This document shows positions 2,435-33,096 of a stretch of DNA of 64,000 nt, one piece after another. Position numbers and translations under genes: made by a program. This DNA is from Fimbriimonadaceae bacterium. Its GTDB lineage: Bacteria > Armatimonadota > Fimbriimonadia > Fimbriimonadales > Fimbriimonadaceae. How positions within the stretch are numbered: position 1 is the first letter of the stretch; the number at the start of each line of letters is the position of its first letter. Where the stretch lies: NCBI GenBank assembly GCA_022843485.1, contig JALHNM010000005.1, positions 62,001 through 126,000 of the forward strand, in the 5' to 3' direction. The notes beneath the pieces are model-generated. The model was not told where the DNA came from and searched no databases. It worked only from the letters and a program-made list of their open reading frames with translations.

Positions 2435-3070
2435 GTGGCCATCCCTACCGTGTCCAGCATCGGAGCCGGTGCTCTGCTGACGTTCCTCGCCGCCGGTGCT
2501 TCGGTCGTGGCGCCCCGGACATTCGATATGCGCGACCCTAAGGGAGTCAGCGGGCTTTCGCTCCGGATCGACTCGGCCCTTGAGCCCGTACACGGGAGCG
2601 CCGTTGGGGTCTCGGGGAGCGTCGTGTTCGACCCCGAGAAGCCGGAGCTTTCGAAAGGCACCGTCTCGATCGCCGCCAAGGAAGTGCGGCTCGGGAGCCA
2701 AGGCCTGACCGAGGCGATGCACGAGGACTGGTGCCTCGACGTGGCGAAGCACCCCTCGATCGACTTCACCGTGAAGCGGGTGTACGACGTAAAGGCCGAC
2801 GGGCCCGGCCGCTGGACGGTCAAGGTGGACGGAGACTTCAAGCTCAAGGACGTCACGAAGCCGCTCACGGTGACGGCCACCGTCACGCACCTCAAGGACA
2901 GCATCAAGGCCCGCGGGGGGATGGAAGGCAAGGACGGGGATCTGCTCCAAATCCGGTCGCGGTTCTCGTTCAACCGGCTCGACTTCGGCGTGGCCCCGGA
3001 TCTGAATCCGAAGGTGATCGGCCCCGTCGTCGAGGTCGACCTGTCCTTCGTCGGGGTGAGCCCGAATTGA
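2435..3070 (+). CDS. Secreted YceI-like domain protein
   Basis: YceI proteins are periplasmic lipocalin-like barrels that bind isoprenoid-type lipids. Here a signal-like hydrophobic stretch (GAGALLTFLAAGASVVA) precedes the barrel, which shows the family pattern: FDMRDPKGVSGLSLRID at the start, a SGSVVFDPEKPELSKGTV repeat, the strand DFTVKRVYDV, then DGDFKLKDVTKPLTVTATV and the terminal FSFNRLDFGV. An open frame continues upstream to 2243 but lacks coding character. GTG at 2435 or 2450 leaves a normal signal peptide, so the start is approximate. The stop overlaps the TTG start of the next gene (TTGA), implying translational coupling. Confidence 0.82.
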   Translation: MAIPTVSSIGAGALLTFLAAGASVVAPRTFDMRDPKGVSGLSLRIDSALEPVHGSAVGVSGSVVFDPEKPELSKGTVSIAAKEVRLGSQGLTEAMHEDWCLDVAKHPSIDFTVKRVYDVKADGPGRWTVKVDGDFKLKDVTKPLTVTATVTHLKDSIKARGGMEGKDGDLLQIRSRFSFNRLDFGVAPDLNPKVIGPVVEVDLSFVGVSPN

Positions 3071-3609
3071 CCGGGCTTCTTCTTGCGGCGGTCCTGGCCC
3101 AGTCGGCCGGGGAGGCGGCTGTCGGCCTGGCCAAGGGCGCGTTCGCGTCCCCGTTCGAGCCGATGCACGTGACCGGGCCGTACGCAGGAACCCGCATGTG
3201 CCCCGTCTGTGAGTGGGCACAGTCGCCGATGGCAATGGTGTGGGTCAACGGTGCCCCTGAGGCCGACGTCCGGGCGGTGGTCCAAGGGATCCAAGCGGGC
3301 GTCGCCGAGGCGGGATCGGCGGGCGTCAAGGCCTTCCTGATCGACGCCAACGTGGCCGGGGCGGACGACGCGGCCAAGTCTCGGCTCGCGGGCTGGGCGG
3401 AGGCATGGGCAACCCCGGACGTGTTCCTGATGTACCGTCCGGCCACCTTGAAGACGGCGCTCAAGAACTACCGCCTCGACGCGACGGACTCCTGGAAGCT
3501 CGTCGTCATCACAGTGAACAAGCGCCGAGTCGTACAGTCCTGGCCCGCCGCGACTGCGGCCGACGCCGCCGCGGTACGCCAAGCGGTGGCTGGGCTCGTC
3601 AAGAAGTGA
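3067..3609 (+). CDS. Secreted thioredoxin-like protein with CPVC motif
   Basis: 180 residues from a TTG start overlapping the preceding stop; the longer frame upstream is a shadow of the YceI gene. The signal peptide (LLLAAVLAQSAG) is followed by FEPMHVTGPYAGTRMCPVC. A CPVC cysteine pair in this setting and the later beta-alpha-beta pattern (AFLIDANVAG, VFLMYRPATL, LVVITVNKRRVV) suggest a thioredoxin-like fold in the periplasm. I recall similar short proteins in Planctomycetes and Armatimonadota but not a characterised function. Coupling to a YceI protein hints at a shared periplasmic role. The fold assignment is inference. Confidence 0.75.
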   Translation: MTGLLLAAVLAQSAGEAAVGLAKGAFASPFEPMHVTGPYAGTRMCPVCEWAQSPMAMVWVNGAPEADVRAVVQGIQAGVAEAGSAGVKAFLIDANVAGADDAAKSRLAGWAEAWATPDVFLMYRPATLKTALKNYRLDATDSWKLVVITVNKRRVVQSWPAATAADAAAVRQAVAGLVKK

Positions 3610-4713
3610 TCACCCTGCTAGGGCGGCGGCGAGGGCGGCCACGATGCGGGCGTTCTCGGCCTCGCCCTTGACGGCCGTGCGGACGTAGCGACCCTGGAAC
3701 CGGGGACTGAGGGAGTCGCAGTCGCGGAGGAACACGCCTGTCGTGGCGGTCGCGGCGCACACGGATGCCGCTAGGGGCCGGACGAGCTCGAAGAGCAGGA
3801 AGTTCGCGACTGAGTCGAAGACCCGGGTCACGCCGGGAAGGGCGGCGAGGGCCTCTGCCATCGACCCCCGAAGGACGGCCGTCTCCTCGGCGCGGGCCGC
3901 GTAGTAGCCGGGGTCGCGCAGGGCCTCGACTGCGGCGACCTGAGCGAGCAGCCCTACGGACCATGGCGGACTCATGGGGGCCAGGTCGGCTACGAACTGG
4001 GGCGAGGTCGCGAGGTAGCCCGCCCGGAGCCCGCTCAGCGCGTAGAACTTGGAGAGGCTCTTCGCGACGGTCAACCGAGGGTCGGTGCCGACGAGGGGTT
4101 CGGCCGATGGGGTGCCCGGTGCGAAGTCGATGTACGTCTCGTCGATCCAGACGCGGGTCTCGCTGGGGAGCCCGGACAGGAGCCCCTCTACCAAGGCCCG
4201 ATCGACGTGGACGCCGGTCGGACTGTTCGGGTTGACGAGCACGACGAGCCGGCACCCCTTGGCCGCCCGCAAGAGGGCCTCGAGCCGAGGGCGGAAGCCG
4301 TCGTCGGGGTCGAGTTCGCACCGCACGGTCTCGACGCCGAGCACGTGCTCGAAAATGTGGCTGTACTCGCCGTACATCGGGTCGAGGACGCACACTCGGT
4401 CGCCCGGTGCGACGAGTCGCGGGAAGGCGAGGTACATGAGGGAGGAGGTCCCCGCACCCAGGAGGACGCTGGAGGGGTCGAGCCCCCTGGCATCGGCGAT
4501 CGCCTGGACCAACCCTTCGCCGTGGGTCGGGGGGCTGGTCTTGACGAGCCAGGCGAGGTGGGCGCGAAGGGCTTCTAGTACGCCGGGGGCCGGGTCGTAC
4601 CAGGCGTCGAGCACGTCGGCGTTCACGACCTCGCCGCTCCGCTCCAGGGTCTGGAAGTCGGTACCGACGGCGTCGAAGAAGGCTCCACCGTGTACGGCTC
4701 GTACGGGGGACAT
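3610..4713 (-). CDS. HisC-like class I/II aminotransferase
   Basis: 367 residues from the ATG at 4713, eight bases after the trpA stop. The frame continues upstream to 4800 only by reading through trpA. PLP fold type I features: NPNSPTG at 161-167, DETY at 191-194, the Schiff-base Lys222 in SLSKFYALSGLRAGY, and a C-terminal RYVRTAV supplying the carboxylate-binding Arg. The pattern matches histidinol-phosphate/aromatic aminotransferases and the related CobD decarboxylases. Position after trpA favours an aromatic or histidinol-phosphate role, but substrate specificity is not decided by these motifs. Confidence 0.88.
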   Translation of the reverse strand: MSPVRAVHGGAFFDAVGTDFQTLERSGEVVNADVLDAWYDPAPGVLEALRAHLAWLVKTSPPTHGEGLVQAIADARGLDPSSVLLGAGTSSLMYLAFPRLVAPGDRVCVLDPMYGEYSHIFEHVLGVETVRCELDPDDGFRPRLEALLRAAKGCRLVVLVNPNSPTGVHVDRALVEGLLSGLPSETRVWIDETYIDFAPGTPSAEPLVGTDPRLTVAKSLSKFYALSGLRAGYLATSPQFVADLAPMSPPWSVGLLAQVAAVEALRDPGYYAARAEETAVLRGSMAEALAALPGVTRVFDSVANFLLFELVRPLAASVCAATATTGVFLRDCDSLSPRFQGRYVRTAVKGEAENARIVAALAAALAG

Positions 4714-4721
4714 GACTGGTT

Positions 4722-5516
4722 CTACGACCCCGGGCGGGTCGCGTCCTTGAGGGCCCGGATCGACTCGAGAAGCCCGGCCCGGCCGCGGCCCCCGTCCCAA
4801 TCACGGGCGAGCCGGTCGACGAGCCAGGACCCGACGACCGCTCCGTCGGCGAATCGGCACACGGCGCGGACGTCCTCGGGGGTACTGATGCCGAAGCCGA
4901 CGCAGACCGGGAGGTCGGTCCTGGCTCGAAGCCTAGCCACCAGCGCCTCCGCTTCGTCGCCTTGGCGGCTCGAAGCCCCGGTGACCCCCGTTCGCGAGAC
5001 CGCGTAGAGGAACCCGCGGCTCACGGCGCAGACGGCGTCCAAGCGGGCGTCCGTGCTCGTGGGTGCGGCGAGATAGACCGTGTCCAGACCCTCGGTCCGG
5101 GCGGCGACGGCCCATGCACCTCCCTCTTCGGGGATCATGTCGCAGACGATAGAGCCGCTGGCGCCCGCTGCTCGTGCCGCGGCGGCAAAACCAGGGAGCG
5201 TCATCCGCAGCATCGGGTTCGTGTATCCCATGAGCACGACAGGGACTCGGTCGAACCCGGCGAGTGCGTCAAGGACGCCCCGGGTCGTGACCCCTCGCTC
5301 CAGGGCGCGGTGGCTGCTCGCCTGGATCGTCGGTCCGTCGGCGATGGGGTCGCTGAACGGCAGACCGACCTCGATCAGGTCGGCGCCGCCCTCCGCCAGG
5401 GTGTCGAGGATGGCGGGCAGGTCCTCGAGCGCAGGGTCGCCGGCCGTCACGAAGAGCACGAGGGCCTTCTCCCCGCGGGCCCGAAGCGTTCCGAACGTGT
5501 CTGCGATCCTGCCCAT
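4722..5516 (-). CDS. trpA: Tryptophan synthase alpha subunit
   Basis: 264 residues, full length. It cleaves indole-3-glycerol phosphate to indole and glyceraldehyde-3-phosphate for the beta subunit. The catalytic residues are in the classical positions: Glu49 in LIEVGLPFSDP and Asp60 in IADGPTIQ. The phosphate-binding loops (GYTNPML; VGFGIS then GSWLVDRL) are present. trpB is not adjacent upstream; the neighbour at 5.67 kb is a divergent dsbD-like gene, so the trp genes are split. Probably co-transcribed with the downstream aminotransferase. Confidence 0.97.
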   Translation of the reverse strand: MGRIADTFGTLRARGEKALVLFVTAGDPALEDLPAILDTLAEGGADLIEVGLPFSDPIADGPTIQASSHRALERGVTTRGVLDALAGFDRVPVVLMGYTNPMLRMTLPGFAAAARAAGASGSIVCDMIPEEGGAWAVAARTEGLDTVYLAAPTSTDARLDAVCAVSRGFLYAVSRTGVTGASSRQGDEAEALVARLRARTDLPVCVGFGISTPEDVRAVCRFADGAVVGSWLVDRLARDWDGGRGRAGLLESIRALKDATRPGS

Positions 5517-5668
5517 CGACTTCCCCGCTATCTAACCCTCTCCCTCGGCCCGCCCCTCGCCGGGCCTGGGCCGGGACGCCGCTTGAGCTGGCCCTCGGGG
5601 GGGCCACCGGAACCGCGGGAGCACTGCAAGGGTTGGGGGCAGTAGTACACTCGTACCGGGTTCACCGC

Positions 5669-7819
5669 ATGATGCACCGCGCCGCAACGACGTTCGTCCT
5701 CCTCCTGCTCGCCCTCGCGGGGTGGGCGCAGAACACGCCGCCTACGATCTCGTTCGCGCTGGACAAGGCCTCCGGCCGACCGGGCGAGGTCGTACGGGGC
5801 GTGGTCACGGTCACCTTCGCCGAGGGCCTGCACGCCTACCAGAACCCCCCGAGCGAGGACTATATGATCCCGCTGGAGGTCAAGGCGGACGAGGGGACCA
5901 CGTTGGTCAAGGTCGAGTACCCGGCGGGGGTCGGTAAGGCGGTCGGCGGGAGCGACGTCCCGGTGCTCGTCTACTCCGGTGAGACGCGGGTGCCGGTGCA
6001 GATCAAGCTGGGCGCGAAGCCAGGCCCCCAGACCGTCGCGCTGAAGGTGCGTTACCAGCAGTGCGACGCGACGAGCTGCTTCGCGCCGAAGACGGAGCGG
6101 GTCGAGGCCAAGGTGACGGTTTCGGGTGGGACTGCGGCCGCGGCTGGGGGCTTGATCCAGGAGTTGAAGGCGGATCGGACGGAAGTCGCGCCGGGGACCC
6201 GGGTCACCCTGACCTTTCGGTTCAAGGAGGGCGCCCGGGCCAGGATTCAGGTGCTCAGCAAGGTCGCGGGCGAATCTACGGTCTTTTCCTTGCAGAGCGG
6301 GACGACCCAGATCAAGGTCGAACACGACTCGGTCGTGCGGCTCACGGTGACCGGGAAGGACGGCAAATCGGAGACCCGCGAGATTCGGATCAAGGTCAAG
6401 CGGCCGCAAGCGGAGGAGACCCCCGCTTCTGGAGTGACGACGCCTCCCGACACCCCGGTCTCGAGCGAAGTCCCGTCCCAACCGGTCGGCTCGGCCGACG
6501 CACCGGCCCCCGCGGCCGGTCAGGAGGCGGCGGCACCGACCGAGACCGGGCTCGCGGGCTGGCTCCAGACGAACTTTCGCGCCGGAAACTGGCTGTTCAT
6601 CGTGCTCGGGTCTGTCCTCGTCGGGCTGGCGCTCACGTTGACGCCCTGCGTCTACCCGATGATCCCGATCACGGTGTCCTACTTCAGCAACCAGACCGCC
6701 CAGAACCGGGCGGGCAAGCTCGGCCTCGGGGCGATGTACATGCTCGGGATCGCGATCACCTACGGGATCGTAGGGGCCATCTTCGCGTCGTTGGGTAAGG
6801 GGGTGGGGGCCCTGTTCACGTACCCGTGGTTCCTGTTCGCCCTGTCCGCACTCATGGTCGTGCTTGCGCTGTCGATGTTCGACGTGTACGAGATCGGGGT
6901 GCCGCAATTCATCGGGCGCCAGTTGAAGGGCCGGTCCGGTCCGGTCGGGGCGCTTGTGATGGGTTTGCTCATGGGCTTCGCGGCGGCGCCGTGTGCCGGG
7001 GCGCTGGTGAGCGCGGTCGCGATCGAGGTGGCGAACACCCAGTCGCTGCCGATCGGGATGCTCGTCTTCTCGGCGATCGGGCTGGGGCTCGGGTTGCCGT
7101 TCCTCGCGTTGGCCGCCGTTTCGACGGGGGCGAACAAGGTCTTGCCGAAGTCGGGCGGGTGGCTCAAGACGGTCAAGGCGGTCCTCGGTCTCGTGGTGAT
7201 GTGGCTTGCGGTGGACTACCTCTTCAAGGGCCTTGGGCTCCGGGCGGGCGAGGCCACGACGCTGGCTGCTTGGGCGGGGGCGTACGGGCTCGGGGCGGCC
7301 TACCTCTTGCTCGTCGACCGGTCCGAGCCAAGCCACTTCGTGGTCGGGGTCAAGGGAACAGCGGTCGCGGCGCTCGGGCTCCTCGCGGGGATGGCGCTCC
7401 AGGAGCGGTCGAACGTGCTCTTCCAGCAGGAGCTGGCGCGGAGCGGGGCGGGGGTGACGGCCCAGGTGCAGTGGGTCAAGTACACCGACGCCGCGTTCGA
7501 GGAGGCCAAGGCGAGCGGGAAACCGATCATGATCGACGCCACCGCGGACTGGTGCACGCTCTGTAAGGAGATCGACCGCAAGGTCTTCCAAACGCCCCGA
7601 GGGTTGACGGCCCTGCGCGACGTGGTGGCGCTGAAGATCGACCACAGTACGGGGGTCGATCAGGCCTACATCGATGCGACGACGAAGCGGTTCGGCATCG
7701 TCGGGCTGCCGCACATCATGTTCTTCCGGCCGGGCGGCGATCTCGTGGCGACCAAGAACGAGCTGGCCGACGTAGCCGAGCTCGAGGCCGTGCTGCGCCA
7801 GTCCGGGGCCTCGCTTTGA
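5669..7819 (+). CDS. dsbD: DsbD-like thiol:disulfide interchange protein
   Basis: About 716 residues; start is one of two adjacent ATGs (5669/5672) before the signal peptide TTFVLLLLALAGWAQ. Order: N-terminal DsbD-alpha-like domain (TISFALDKASGRPGEVVRG with the QQCDATSCF cysteine pair), a second Ig-like region, a Pro/Ala linker, a multi-helix membrane domain with redox cysteines in TLTPCVYPMIP and FAAAPCAGAL, and a C-terminal thioredoxin-like domain with DWCTLCKEID. This is the complete electron path from cytoplasmic thioredoxin to periplasmic substrates. The second Ig-like region makes it slightly longer than E. coli DsbD. Its stop overlaps the TTG start of kdsA. Confidence 0.93.
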   Translation: MMHRAATTFVLLLLALAGWAQNTPPTISFALDKASGRPGEVVRGVVTVTFAEGLHAYQNPPSEDYMIPLEVKADEGTTLVKVEYPAGVGKAVGGSDVPVLVYSGETRVPVQIKLGAKPGPQTVALKVRYQQCDATSCFAPKTERVEAKVTVSGGTAAAAGGLIQELKADRTEVAPGTRVTLTFRFKEGARARIQVLSKVAGESTVFSLQSGTTQIKVEHDSVVRLTVTGKDGKSETREIRIKVKRPQAEETPASGVTTPPDTPVSSEVPSQPVGSADAPAPAAGQEAAAPTETGLAGWLQTNFRAGNWLFIVLGSVLVGLALTLTPCVYPMIPITVSYFSNQTAQNRAGKLGLGAMYMLGIAITYGIVGAIFASLGKGVGALFTYPWFLFALSALMVVLALSMFDVYEIGVPQFIGRQLKGRSGPVGALVMGLLMGFAAAPCAGALVSAVAIEVANTQSLPIGMLVFSAIGLGLGLPFLALAAVSTGANKVLPKSGGWLKTVKAVLGLVVMWLAVDYLFKGLGLRAGEATTLAAWAGAYGLGAAYLLLVDRSEPSHFVVGVKGTAVAALGLLAGMALQERSNVLFQQELARSGAGVTAQVQWVKYTDAAFEEAKASGKPIMIDATADWCTLCKEIDRKVFQTPRGLTALRDVVALKIDHSTGVDQAYIDATTKRFGIVGLPHIMFFRPGGDLVATKNELADVAELEAVLRQSGASL

Positions 7820-29804: not shown

Positions 29805-31676
29805 ATGACCTTCACCCCCTTCAAACGCCTCCTGCCGGCCCTGCTCGCCCTCGTCGCGGCGGGGGCCTCGGCCGAGATCGTGTTCCCGAACAACCCGAGC
29901 GTCGTCGACGCCAAGCGCGACTTCGGCGCCCGCGGAGACGGCGTCACGGACGACACCCTCGCCCTCCAGCGCGCCATCGATGCCAGCTGCGGCTCTGGCG
30001 GCTTCACCCGGGCCCTCTACATCCCCAACGGCACCTACCGCGTCTCGAACACGTTGGTCGTCCCGATCGCGGTCGGGCCTTGGATCTACGGCCAGTCCCG
30101 AGACGGGGTCGTCATCCGGCTCGTGGATAACGCCGACCCCAGCGTGCTGAGCGTCCTCCGCACCCACCCCCGGGACAGTGGTGGCGGCTCGGCCGACTGG
30201 TTCATGCGCAACGTGCGCAACCTCACCGTCCACACCGGCAACAACCCGAACGTCGACGGCATCCGCTTCTTCGCCAACAACACCGGCATCCTCAAGAACG
30301 TCCGGGTGACCGGCAACGGGAACATCGGGATCAACGCCGGGTTCAGCGACCAGAGCGGCCCGAACATCGTCCAGGACGTGCTGGTCGACGGGATGCGGCT
30401 CGGGATCCAGATGCAGTGGAGCTGGGGCGGCACCATCAGCCGGGCCACGGTCCGTAACTGCCGCGAGACCGGGGTCTACGTGAGCGCGAACGCGATCGGC
30501 ATCGAAGACCTCGTCGTCGAGGACACCCCCCAGCCCCTCTTCGTCGACTACCCGAACGATTGGACCTGGTGGGGAGGCGTGGTCGCCCTCGTGAACGCCC
30601 GGCTCACCTCGGGCGCGGCCGTGAACGGCCCCGCCATCTTCAACCGGAGCGTGCTCTACGCCCGAAACGTGACCTCGAGCGGCTACACGAAAGTCATCCG
30701 CAGCGACACGCCGAGCGGCGACGTCAACGCCCCGAGCGTGCGCGAGTTCACCTCCCACGCCCCGGGCGGGCTGTTCGGGTCCGCCAGCTCCTCGCTCTGG
30801 CTGCCCGTGAAGCAGGAGCCGGCCGAGGTCTGGGAGAACGACCCGTCGAAGTGGCTCTGGGCCGACGACTACGGCATCACTGCGGGCGATGGCACCGACG
30901 ACACCGCGGGGTTCCAGGCGGCCTTCGACGCCGCTGCCGCCCAAGGCAAGACGGTCGTCGCCATCCGAGGCGCCCGGAACCAGGACCCGAACTGGTACTT
31001 CATCAACGGCGAGGTCCGGGTCAAGTCCCCGGTGCGGCTCGTCACCGGCGTGGGCTGGGGCCGGATCATCGGCACCGGGCGGATCGTGATCGACCGAAAC
31101 TCGGCGCCGACGGTCTTCTTCCGCCACATCGACGCGTTCGGCGGGACACCCGTCACGCTCGAGAACCGGGGCGCAGGAACGCTCGTGGCCGAGAGCTGCG
31201 GCGTCTCGATCCTGGGCACTGGCACCGGGGACATCTTCCTCACGAACTGCCCGGCGAACATCGAACTCCAGAACCCGCGGCAGTCGCTCTGGGCCCGGCA
31301 GCACAACCCGGAGGGCGCGTCGGAACGCGGCCTCAACGTCAATCGCGGGGCCCGACTCTGGGCGCTCGGCATCAAGTCGGAGGGCCGCGGCGTGCGCTAC
31401 CGCACCGAGGCCGGGGGCGCGACCGAGCTCTTCGGCATGTTCAACTACTCGACCTCGGTGGTCCCGAACGACCCGTGGCCGATGTTCACCGTCGAGGACT
31501 CGCTCTTCAGCGTGGCCGGGCTCCGCGAGATCTCGTTCGGCTCGACGTACGAGATCAAGGTGCGCGAGCGCCAGCGCGGGGTCACCCGGGAGGCCGTCGG
31601 CGGCGGCTGGATCGGCTGGTCGCTCTTCACGAACCTACGTCGCCTCCCCCAAGCGGACCGAACGACCATCGACTGA
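29805..31676 (+). CDS. Secreted pectate-lyase-superfamily beta-helix protein
   Basis: 623 residues from the ATG at 29805 (an earlier in-frame ATG at 29748 would add an unlikely leader). Signal peptide LLPALLALVAAGASA. DAKRDFGARGDGVTDDTLALQRAI is the signature of the Pectate_lyase_3/GH28-like right-handed helix, and a second copy, YGITAGDGTDDTAGFQAAF, begins near residue 360. The protein is therefore a tandem of two beta-helix domains. Asn-rich turns (TGNNPNVDGIRFFANNTGIL) line the helix. It probably binds or cleaves an extracellular polysaccharide; catalytic residues not identified. Confidence 0.85.
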   Translation: MTFTPFKRLLPALLALVAAGASAEIVFPNNPSVVDAKRDFGARGDGVTDDTLALQRAIDASCGSGGFTRALYIPNGTYRVSNTLVVPIAVGPWIYGQSRDGVVIRLVDNADPSVLSVLRTHPRDSGGGSADWFMRNVRNLTVHTGNNPNVDGIRFFANNTGILKNVRVTGNGNIGINAGFSDQSGPNIVQDVLVDGMRLGIQMQWSWGGTISRATVRNCRETGVYVSANAIGIEDLVVEDTPQPLFVDYPNDWTWWGGVVALVNARLTSGAAVNGPAIFNRSVLYARNVTSSGYTKVIRSDTPSGDVNAPSVREFTSHAPGGLFGSASSSLWLPVKQEPAEVWENDPSKWLWADDYGITAGDGTDDTAGFQAAFDAAAAQGKTVVAIRGARNQDPNWYFINGEVRVKSPVRLVTGVGWGRIIGTGRIVIDRNSAPTVFFRHIDAFGGTPVTLENRGAGTLVAESCGVSILGTGTGDIFLTNCPANIELQNPRQSLWARQHNPEGASERGLNVNRGARLWALGIKSEGRGVRYRTEAGGATELFGMFNYSTSVVPNDPWPMFTVEDSLFSVAGLREISFGSTYEIKVRERQRGVTREAVGGGWIGWSLFTNLRRLPQADRTTID

Positions 31677-31811
31677 CGAACCCGGCGAGGGCGGGGGCCG
31701 GCAGCGCCCCCGCCTCGCCAAGCGTGAGCAGGGGCCCCGGAAGAAATCGCGAGTCTGGAGGCGTCGAAACCCGCCCGGTTGGTGTATTGTGTACTGTCGA
31801 GGAGACCTACG

Positions 31812-33050
31812 ATGACGACGATCCTGGCCCTTTTCGCGGTGGCCGCCCCGTCCTGGGGAGCCCTGCAAGAGCCGTTCCTGGCCCAAGCCAACGGCAAACC
31901 GATCCAGCTCAACGTCGGGCACGCCGCCCCGATGCTGACCGACTTCGACGGCGACGGCAAGCGCGACTTGCTCGTCGGCGAGTTCGGCGGCGGCGGCATC
32001 CGGTTCTATAAGAACCACGGCTCGAGCGCCCAACCCGAGTTCCGAGACTTCGCCATGGTCGAAGCGGACGGCAAGCCGATCCGCGTCGAGGCTGGGTGAT
32101 GCATCGGCGCAGTTCCCCGGTTCGGGGACTTTGACGGTGACGGAACGAACGACATGGTCTCGGGCTCCTTCTCGGGAGGCCTGAGCTTCTTCAAGGGCAT
32201 GCCCGGCGGCAAGTTCGCGGCCGAGCAAAAGATGCTCCGCAACGGCAAGCCGCTGCACGACGAGTCGGCCCAGAGCCCTTGCCTCGGCGACTGGGACGGC
32301 GACGGGGACTTCGACCTCACGCTCGGGCTCATCTCGGGGCAGGTGATGCTCTACACGAACGAGGGCGGGATGCGCTTCTCCGATGGGAAGGGCCTCACGG
32401 CCGAAGGCAAGCCGATCCTCGCGGACGACGGCGGTCCCTGCATCGTCGATTGGGACGGGGACGGCACGCTCGACCTCCTGCTCGGCGACGCGGCGGGCAA
32501 CGTCTGGTTCCACCGCGGACTCAAGAAGGGCGGGACCGACCTCGCCAAAGGGGTCGCCCTGATCCCCGAAGCGGCCAAGGAGAGCGGCTGGACCCCGGCC
32601 AAACGCGACCCGAAGGCCAAGACCGGGCTCGACCGCAAGCGGCCGGGAGTCCGGGTCAAGCCCTGGGCAGGCGATTGGAACGGCGATGGAAAGCTCGACC
32701 TCCTGGTCGGCGACTTCCTGCAACTGCAGCGGGCCGAGAAGGTCCTGACGCCGGACCAGCGACTCGAGCGCGACGAGCTGGTCAAGCGACAGCAGGAGGC
32801 AGTGAAGAAGATGGAGGCGGTCAACAAACGGATCTTCGACCAGGCCGCCATGGAGTCCGGAGTCAAGTCGACCGAGCAGATGACCCCCGAGCAACGAACC
32901 AAGTTCTCGGAGGCCTACATGCGCATCGTCGAGAAGGACGAGGAGTACCAAAAGGTCTCCGCGGAGTACCAAGAGGTCGAGGCCAAGCTTCAGCCCCTCC
33001 AAAACGCCCCCGAAGCCACCGGCTTCGTCTGGGTGTACCTGCGGAAGTGA
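31812..33050 (+). CDS. Secreted FG-GAP/VCBS-repeat protein with one in-frame TGA
   Basis: 412 codons, with a TGA at codon 96 (32097-32099) in an otherwise unbroken frame. Signal peptide (TTILALFAVAAPSWG), then calcium-binding FG-GAP repeats before (TDFDGDGKRDLLVGEF) and after the TGA (FGDFDGDGTNDMVSGSF, LGDWDGDGDFDLTLGL, VDWDGDGTLDLLLGD, AGDWNGDGKLDLLVGD). A coiled-coil-like C-terminus follows (QRLERDELVKRQQEAVKKM). The repeat containing the TGA runs on seamlessly and no new start or SD lies near. The TGA is followed by TGC (Cys) and, 20 bases on, a SECIS-like hairpin. It may be a selenoprotein, or a recent nonsense mutation or sequence error. GAGGAG upstream of the ATG is a good RBS. Confidence 0.75.
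32111..32130 (+). promoter_or_regulatory. SECIS-like hairpin 3' of the in-frame TGA
   Basis: AG, a bulged T (32113), then TCCCC(G) pairs with (C)GGGGA and CT across an apical GGTT. The apical loop starts 20 bases after the TGA, has G at its first positions, and a single bulged T splits the stem. All three are features of bacterial SECIS elements. No computation was run. Confidence 0.45.
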
Positions 33051-33053
33051 ACC

Positions 33054-33096
33054 ATTGGGCGAGGCGGCAGGACGTAGACCTGCCGCCTCGCCCAAT
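33054..33096 (+). terminator. Terminator-like hairpin after the FG-GAP gene
   Basis: Perfect 18-bp stem (33054-33071 with 33079-33096), 7-base loop, four bases after the stop codon. Confidence 0.7.

Follow-up and report, generated by a model that had tools for sequence, protein, structure and literature searches.

Bacterial selenoproteins decoded through a bSECIS element, such as SelD and formate dehydrogenase, combine an in-frame UGA codon, the selABCD genes and Cys-containing homologues with a hairpin that exposes an apical G[G/U] 16-37 nt downstream of the UGA. The published bSECIS constraints comprise a loop of 3-9 nt, a G in its first two positions, a distance of 16-37 nt from the UGA and an MFE of -7.5 or lower (PMC13188914). 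A second group of relevance is formed by the FG-GAP/FG-GAP_3 proteins (PF13517, PF01839), which frequently go by the name of VCBS repeat-containing proteins and are characterised by DxDxDG repeats, a propeller fold and an export signal. The locus described here shares the features of both groups. It very likely represents the gene of an uncatalogued bacterial selenoprotein family, in which UGA 96 is recoded and the product is an exported five-bladed propeller with a Sec-Cys pair. The comparative evidence for this reading covers the recoding, the interchange of Sec and Cys, the SECIS element, the co-occurrence with the decoding machinery and the predicted fold.

The window, i.e. the whole stretch of 64,000 nucleotides that was analysed, contains a 412-codon frame whose sole internal stop is a TGA and which is closed by a terminal TGA. 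The main features of the locus are the following.

31812 to 33050, forward strand: predicted selenoprotein coding sequence, 412 aa with TGA read as Sec at codon 96; homologues are co-linear over the full length
32097 to 32099, forward strand: predicted Sec codon TGA (U96); TGA at this column in 55 distinct homologues, Cys in 6
32100 to 32102, forward strand: Cys97, adjoining Sec in the U-C motif; invariant, 100% in 60 aligned members
32114 to 32128, forward strand: core of the putative SECIS hairpin, UCCCC-G-[GUU]-C-GGGGA; loop at 32120-32122, or a 5-nt loop at 32119-32123
33048 to 33050, forward strand: terminal stop TGA of the selenoprotein coding sequence

The initial annotation had described a TGA at codon 96 of an otherwise open frame, followed directly by Cys and by a resumption of the FG-GAP pattern. 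All three observations were confirmed: the TGA lies at 32097-32099 within the 412 codons, codon 97 is TGC, and FG-GAP_3 repeats flank the TGA on both sides (Pfam, 82.7 bits). The window protein matches PF13517 and PF01839 above the gathering score, with 82.7 and 28.9 bits, respectively, and all 32 members searched match FG-GAP Pfam models at E <= 0.01. On the opposite strand, a 486-codon open frame spans 31635-33095, probably a by-product of the high G+C content.

Taken by itself, the window offers an open frame interrupted once and a hairpin of unremarkable single-sequence energy, both compatible with a nonsense mutation, a pseudogene or a sequencing error. The homologues point the other way. 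A search of the window genome and 150 relatives retrieved 15 genomes with a homologue having exactly one internal TGA, and two (G008 and G034) whose homologues have none. In 35 family ORFs from several phyla, read at codon level, the internal stop was always TGA, in the same column and followed by Cys, with no TAA, TAG or second stop; 26 more Planctomycetota loci agreed with this pattern, again with no further disruption. Overall, 55 distinct homologues from many genera and several phyla carry TGA at the site, verified at codon level. Because the same TGA recurs in many unrelated genomes, neither a sequencing error nor a nonsense mutation confined to this genome can account for it, which refutes the caveat first attached to the locus; the probability left to a broken gene of any kind is negligible. 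Recoding of UGA at codon 96 is near certain on this comparative evidence, and the gene seemingly broken by a stop is very probably intact.

The TGA form was found in Armatimonadota, Planctomycetota, Zixiibacteriota, Fermentibacterota (Aegiribacteria, Sabulitectum) and related lineages; the family is common in two phyla and occurs in others as well. In an even sample of 392 Planctomycetota genomes, with matches tallied by hand, 97 genomes hold the family, yielding 125 matches, 118 with exactly one TGA and seven with none; the TGA position was read at codon level in the 55 sequences, the remaining Planctomycetota matches being stop counts. Six TGA-less homologues were read (L027, L037, L165, L172, L174 and L175), each of which carries a Cys codon, TGT or TGC, in place of the TGA. 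Among the homologues read at codon level, neither a residue other than Sec or Cys nor a non-TGA stop was ever encountered at this position, as expected for a Sec site. Tandem and additional copies also occur: a Zixiibacteriota locus (L058) carries two TGA-containing copies side by side (2932-4497 and 4532-6160), and the host genome of the window has a second, shorter copy (G000:C13:30200-31075; L046, L189), with the TGA-Cys motif and without the coiled coil described below.

The host genome (2.96 Mb, 98.8% complete) encodes the whole selenocysteine machinery, all four of selA, selB, selC and selD being found. SelB scored 338.6 bits over its frame (curated cut-off 242), SelA 468 bits and SelD 335 bits, and a tRNA-Sec was detected with 72.3 bits and reported by ARAGORN as SeC with anticodon tca. 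The selD gene (L010, G000:C1 near 550250) itself codes for a selenoprotein: its frame contains a single TGA, within the classical CAG-U-ASK motif, and is followed up by a strong SECIS hairpin, the loop of which begins to the 3' side at a distance of 33 nt. Its loop plan, G-GUC-C, and that of the window, G-GUU-C, share a G-[GUY]-C architecture.

Across genomes, the TGA form accompanies selB. In the order to which the window belongs, selB was above the cut-off in 15/15 TGA-form genomes versus 57/113 genomes overall (Fisher p = 2e-5). Among Planctomycetota, it was above the cut-off in 82/90 TGA-form genomes, as opposed to 150/295 of those lacking the family (p = 4e-13). The comparisons in this paragraph take no account of relatedness and are inflated by kinship; the association is to be read as strong, the p values as inexact. 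Only 1/7 Cys-form Planctomycetota genomes had selB, compared with the same 82/90 (p = 2e-5), four of the seven being read at codon level (G351, G546, G511, G344) and three (G400, G461, G550) counted as Cys-form solely from a stop-free match. The absence of a selB above the cut-off in the other eight of the 90 TGA-form genomes probably reflects incomplete MAGs. In a set of 15 genomes examined through their contigs, selB was present in 13, and in another one a fragment of it lies at the edge of a contig. As a side observation, selB was above the cut-off in 233 of the 392 sampled Planctomycetota genomes, which suggests that this phylum harbours a large, little-described selenoproteome.

These data also bear on the idea that UGA is decoded here as another amino acid, whether Trp through a reassigned code or any residue through non-specific read-through. 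The analysis covered DNA sequence; the site alternates with Cys, the TGA form tracks selB, and the TGA is followed by a SECIS-like hairpin that is lost in the Cys forms. Moreover, TGA terminates 25 of the 37 long ORFs in the window (non-overlapping, at least 200 aa), in addition to the selenoprotein gene itself, and is thus an ordinary terminator here, which argues against a UGA=Trp code. Decoding as another amino acid is accordingly considered very unlikely, and Sec remains the preferred residue at codon 96.

A maximum likelihood tree built from 60 members places the Cys forms (G008; G351; the G546/G511/G344 group) inside the Sec forms, at no fewer than three positions. Sec therefore looks like the ancestral state, swapped for Cys more than once and, from the tree, in at least three separate changes. 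In six of the seven Planctomycetota cases, the Cys replacement is found in a genome without selB.

The hairpin proposed in the initial annotation held in its position, in its GGTT loop and in its bSECIS layout, whereas the bulged T depends on the choice of register, either U32113 or U32114 being able to pair with A32128, and is not conserved. The apical GGTT occupies 32119-32122, separated from the TGA by 19 nt, and the stem runs to 32128. When folded, the window hairpin reaches -16.2 kcal/mol with a GTT loop at 20 nt, which lies within the bSECIS limits of PMC13188914; L056 and L057, both close relatives, fell short of the required energy when scanned alongside it. As a single sequence, however, the segment 32090-32150 folds no better than its dinucleotide shuffles (z = -0.16), so the case for a real hairpin has to be made from the relatives. 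A search of the hairpin against Rfam, which to our knowledge contains hardly any bacterial SECIS entries, returned chance matches only and no SECIS family.

In the TGA forms, the loop lies at a fixed distance of 19-20 nt past the TGA, with two Fermentibacterota-type sequences shifted by +3 nt, and the consensus reads U-C-C-N-C / [AG]G[GU]U[UC] / G-N-G-G-A. Two stem pairs are invariant across the aligned TGA forms, while the variable pair 21-29 occurs as A-U in 17 sequences, G-C in 10 and C-G in one, and is unpaired in three (n = 31). At the level of codons, a proline third base changes in step with the second base of the Ala/Val/Gly codon across the loop.

Conserved amino acids dictate a number of the stem bases and two pairs never vary, so that the hairpin might in principle only reflect what protein sequence and codon choice impose on the CxxxxP[QR]xxD motif, with Sec inserted through another signal. 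The free third positions argue against this, as they pair well beyond what the codon usage of the individual genes would predict. In 55/55 TGA forms the Ala/Val/Gly codon ends in G (expected 20.5), and in 50/55 the Pro codon ends in the complement of its partner base (expected 14.8), both counts being inflated by phylogenetic relatedness. Among the five exceptions to Pro pairing, two are G-U, and the other three have in common a displaced stem that contains a bulged base; a Planctomycetota subgroup (L051, L054, L061) displays a natural hairpin variant, in which CCC faces GTG and pairing is kept through the bulged base. In the Cys forms, the same two synonymous-site tests gave 0/6 (G) and 1/6 (Pro complement), and the hairpin is absent from 6/6, even though the peptide is nearly identical; the hairpin thus vanishes where Sec is not needed. 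The conserved position, the compensatory changes and the loss in Cys forms together show that the hairpin is real, and its origin as a mere by-product is judged highly improbable. Machinery, TGA/Cys alternation and a conserved, covarying hairpin all favour the Sec-Cys interpretation.

The AlphaFold2 model of the window protein (pLDDT 93.4, pTM 0.88) is a five-bladed beta-propeller; its elements, preceded by the export signal, are the following.

31812 to 31862, forward strand: N-terminal hydrophobic export signal (approximate extent), MTTILALFAVAAPSWG
31923 to 32009, forward strand: blade 1, strands 38-66 (AlphaFold2 model)
32115 to 32192, forward strand: blade 2, strands 102-127 (AlphaFold2 model); U96-C97 lie in the loop before the first strand
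32271 to 32354, forward strand: blade 3, strands 154-181 (AlphaFold2 model)
32436 to 32513, forward strand: blade 4, strands 209-234 (AlphaFold2 model)
32649 to 32726, forward strand: blade 5 inner strands, 280-305 (AlphaFold2 model)
32751 to 32999, forward strand: coiled-coil hairpin, residues 314-396, inserted ahead of the closing strand (AlphaFold2 model)
33012 to 33038, forward strand: C-terminal closing strand 401-409, TGFVWVYLR (AlphaFold2 model and alignment)

The closing strand is well conserved (W407 80%, G404 93%). The coiled coil is missing in short members, e.g. L035, L036 and L046, and is dispensable for this reason. The secondary structure of the model places Sec96-Cys97 in the loop entering the inner strand of blade 2, which, going by propeller topology, would point towards the central channel. 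Propellers usually carry their catalytic or binding residues in such inter-blade loops. An extracytoplasmic location is the most likely one for the family, as judged from its sequences: 64/67 members have a hydrophobic 12-mer near the N-terminus (mean hydropathy at least 1.6), some resemble lipoproteins, and two of the 32 members searched against NCBIfam match type IX sorting tails.

On this basis, the following course of events can be proposed. The ribosome would pass the UGA at codon 96 without stopping, SelB delivering Sec-tRNA-Sec under the guidance of the hairpin, whose core starts 14 nt downstream, and Sec insertion would yield a 412-residue protein with a Sec-Cys pair. Once exported, the protein is predicted to fold into a five-bladed FG-GAP (DxDxDG) beta-propeller, with the coiled-coil hairpin preceding the closing strand and Sec96-Cys97 in the inter-blade loop entering the inner strand of blade 2. 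There the vicinal pair may act as a redox or metal(loid)-binding centre outside the cytoplasm, and upon oxidation it could form a selenenyl-sulfide.

Among the 60 members, Sec/Cys96 and Cys97 are the only invariant redox residues, and there is no further invariant Cys, His or aromatic residue to point to an active site. The simplest proposal is that this exported protein uses its vicinal Sec-Cys either for thiol/selenol redox chemistry or to bind a soft metal(loid). Most characterised selenoproteins are oxidoreductases (PMC13188914), and a catalytic redox role of the pair appears, roughly speaking, somewhat favoured. The pair may instead serve mainly as a metal(loid) ligand or as a structural vicinal selenosulfide: vicinal CU/CC motifs occur in the metal-related selenoproteins HgcA, SaoL and MbdU (PMC13188914), and the lack of a further active-site marker fits such a role, against which stands the predominance of oxidoreductases just mentioned; we regard it as a serious though not a favoured possibility. 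The broader picture of widespread, mainly Sec-encoded exported propellers acting as oxidoreductases or metal(loid) handlers, with the Sec-Cys loop as active centre and Sec as the ancestral state, is held with slightly better than even confidence.

Genomic context and profile searches added little on function. No conserved operon partner emerged from 20 gene neighbourhoods, and the neighbours in the window, judged by eye from sequence as S8 protease-like and pectate-lyase-like, therefore give no functional clue. No catalytic family was matched by the window protein or the 32 members searched. Matches to the NCBIfam models FusH and XAC2610 were judged to reflect FG-GAP/DxDxDG motif similarity and were dismissed, as the window protein scores far below their cut-offs. 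A toxin reading, based on matches to TcdB_toxin_midN and Tc complex models, was likewise rejected, these matches stemming from shared repeats and lying below the Pfam gathering score.

The initial annotation knew of no described selenoprotein in the FG-GAP family, and the resources consulted bear this out. The catalogue of 2026 (Table 1 of PMC13188914), which covers 119 families of prokaryotic selenoproteins, lists no FG-GAP, VCBS or propeller family, nor is there one among the nine new families of PMC12013277. In NCBIfam (June 2026), no model scored above cut-off for the window protein, and no selenoprotein model did so among the 32 members. Literature searches combining selenoprotein with FG-GAP or VCBS returned nothing relevant, with thin coverage of subscription papers and preprints; no earlier report of the family was found, and an unnamed sighting may exist among the selenoprotein candidates that PMC4807772 gives for two Planctomycetes. 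The novelty resides in the family itself, in its class of fold and in Sec being more common than Cys; the decoding mechanism was known before.

An overlooked selenoprotein family with more than 100 members would add an FG-GAP beta-propeller class missing from the catalogues, and the Sec-Cys pair in a propeller loop would constitute a new chemical motif to characterise. Annotation pipelines are expected to split or truncate such genes at the TGA, and methods that detect Sec through abundant Cys homologues would tend to miss the family, since its Cys forms are rare and derived. If Sec is indeed ancestral, the family may be one reason why many Planctomycetota and Armatimonadota retain the selenocysteine system, and it offers a testable explanation for the retention of selB in about half of the sampled Planctomycetota genomes.

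Ordinary FG-GAP proteins retrieved in the same homologue search are without the U-C motif; the new subfamily differs from them in its invariant U-C after blade 1, its five blades and its frequent coiled-coil insertion. Among solved structures, the best fold matches are the five-bladed GH62/GH43 glycosidases (5b6s, 4o8o and others), with Z 19.6 and an rmsd of 3.4 over 261 residues, but identity is about 10% and there is no sequence family match; the match was taken as a resemblance in fold, which says nothing about activity. Methanol dehydrogenase, a propeller enzyme with a vicinal Cys-Cys disulfide, provides a lead as another extracytoplasmic beta-propeller with an adjacent Cys-type pair, although it has eight blades and a PQQ cofactor as opposed to the five blades predicted here. 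Compared with known bSECIS selenoproteins such as SelD and formate dehydrogenase, the present family belongs to a different protein family and fold; in those proteins Sec is a minority among Cys homologues, whereas here it is dominant (118/125 Planctomycetota matches) and apparently ancestral.
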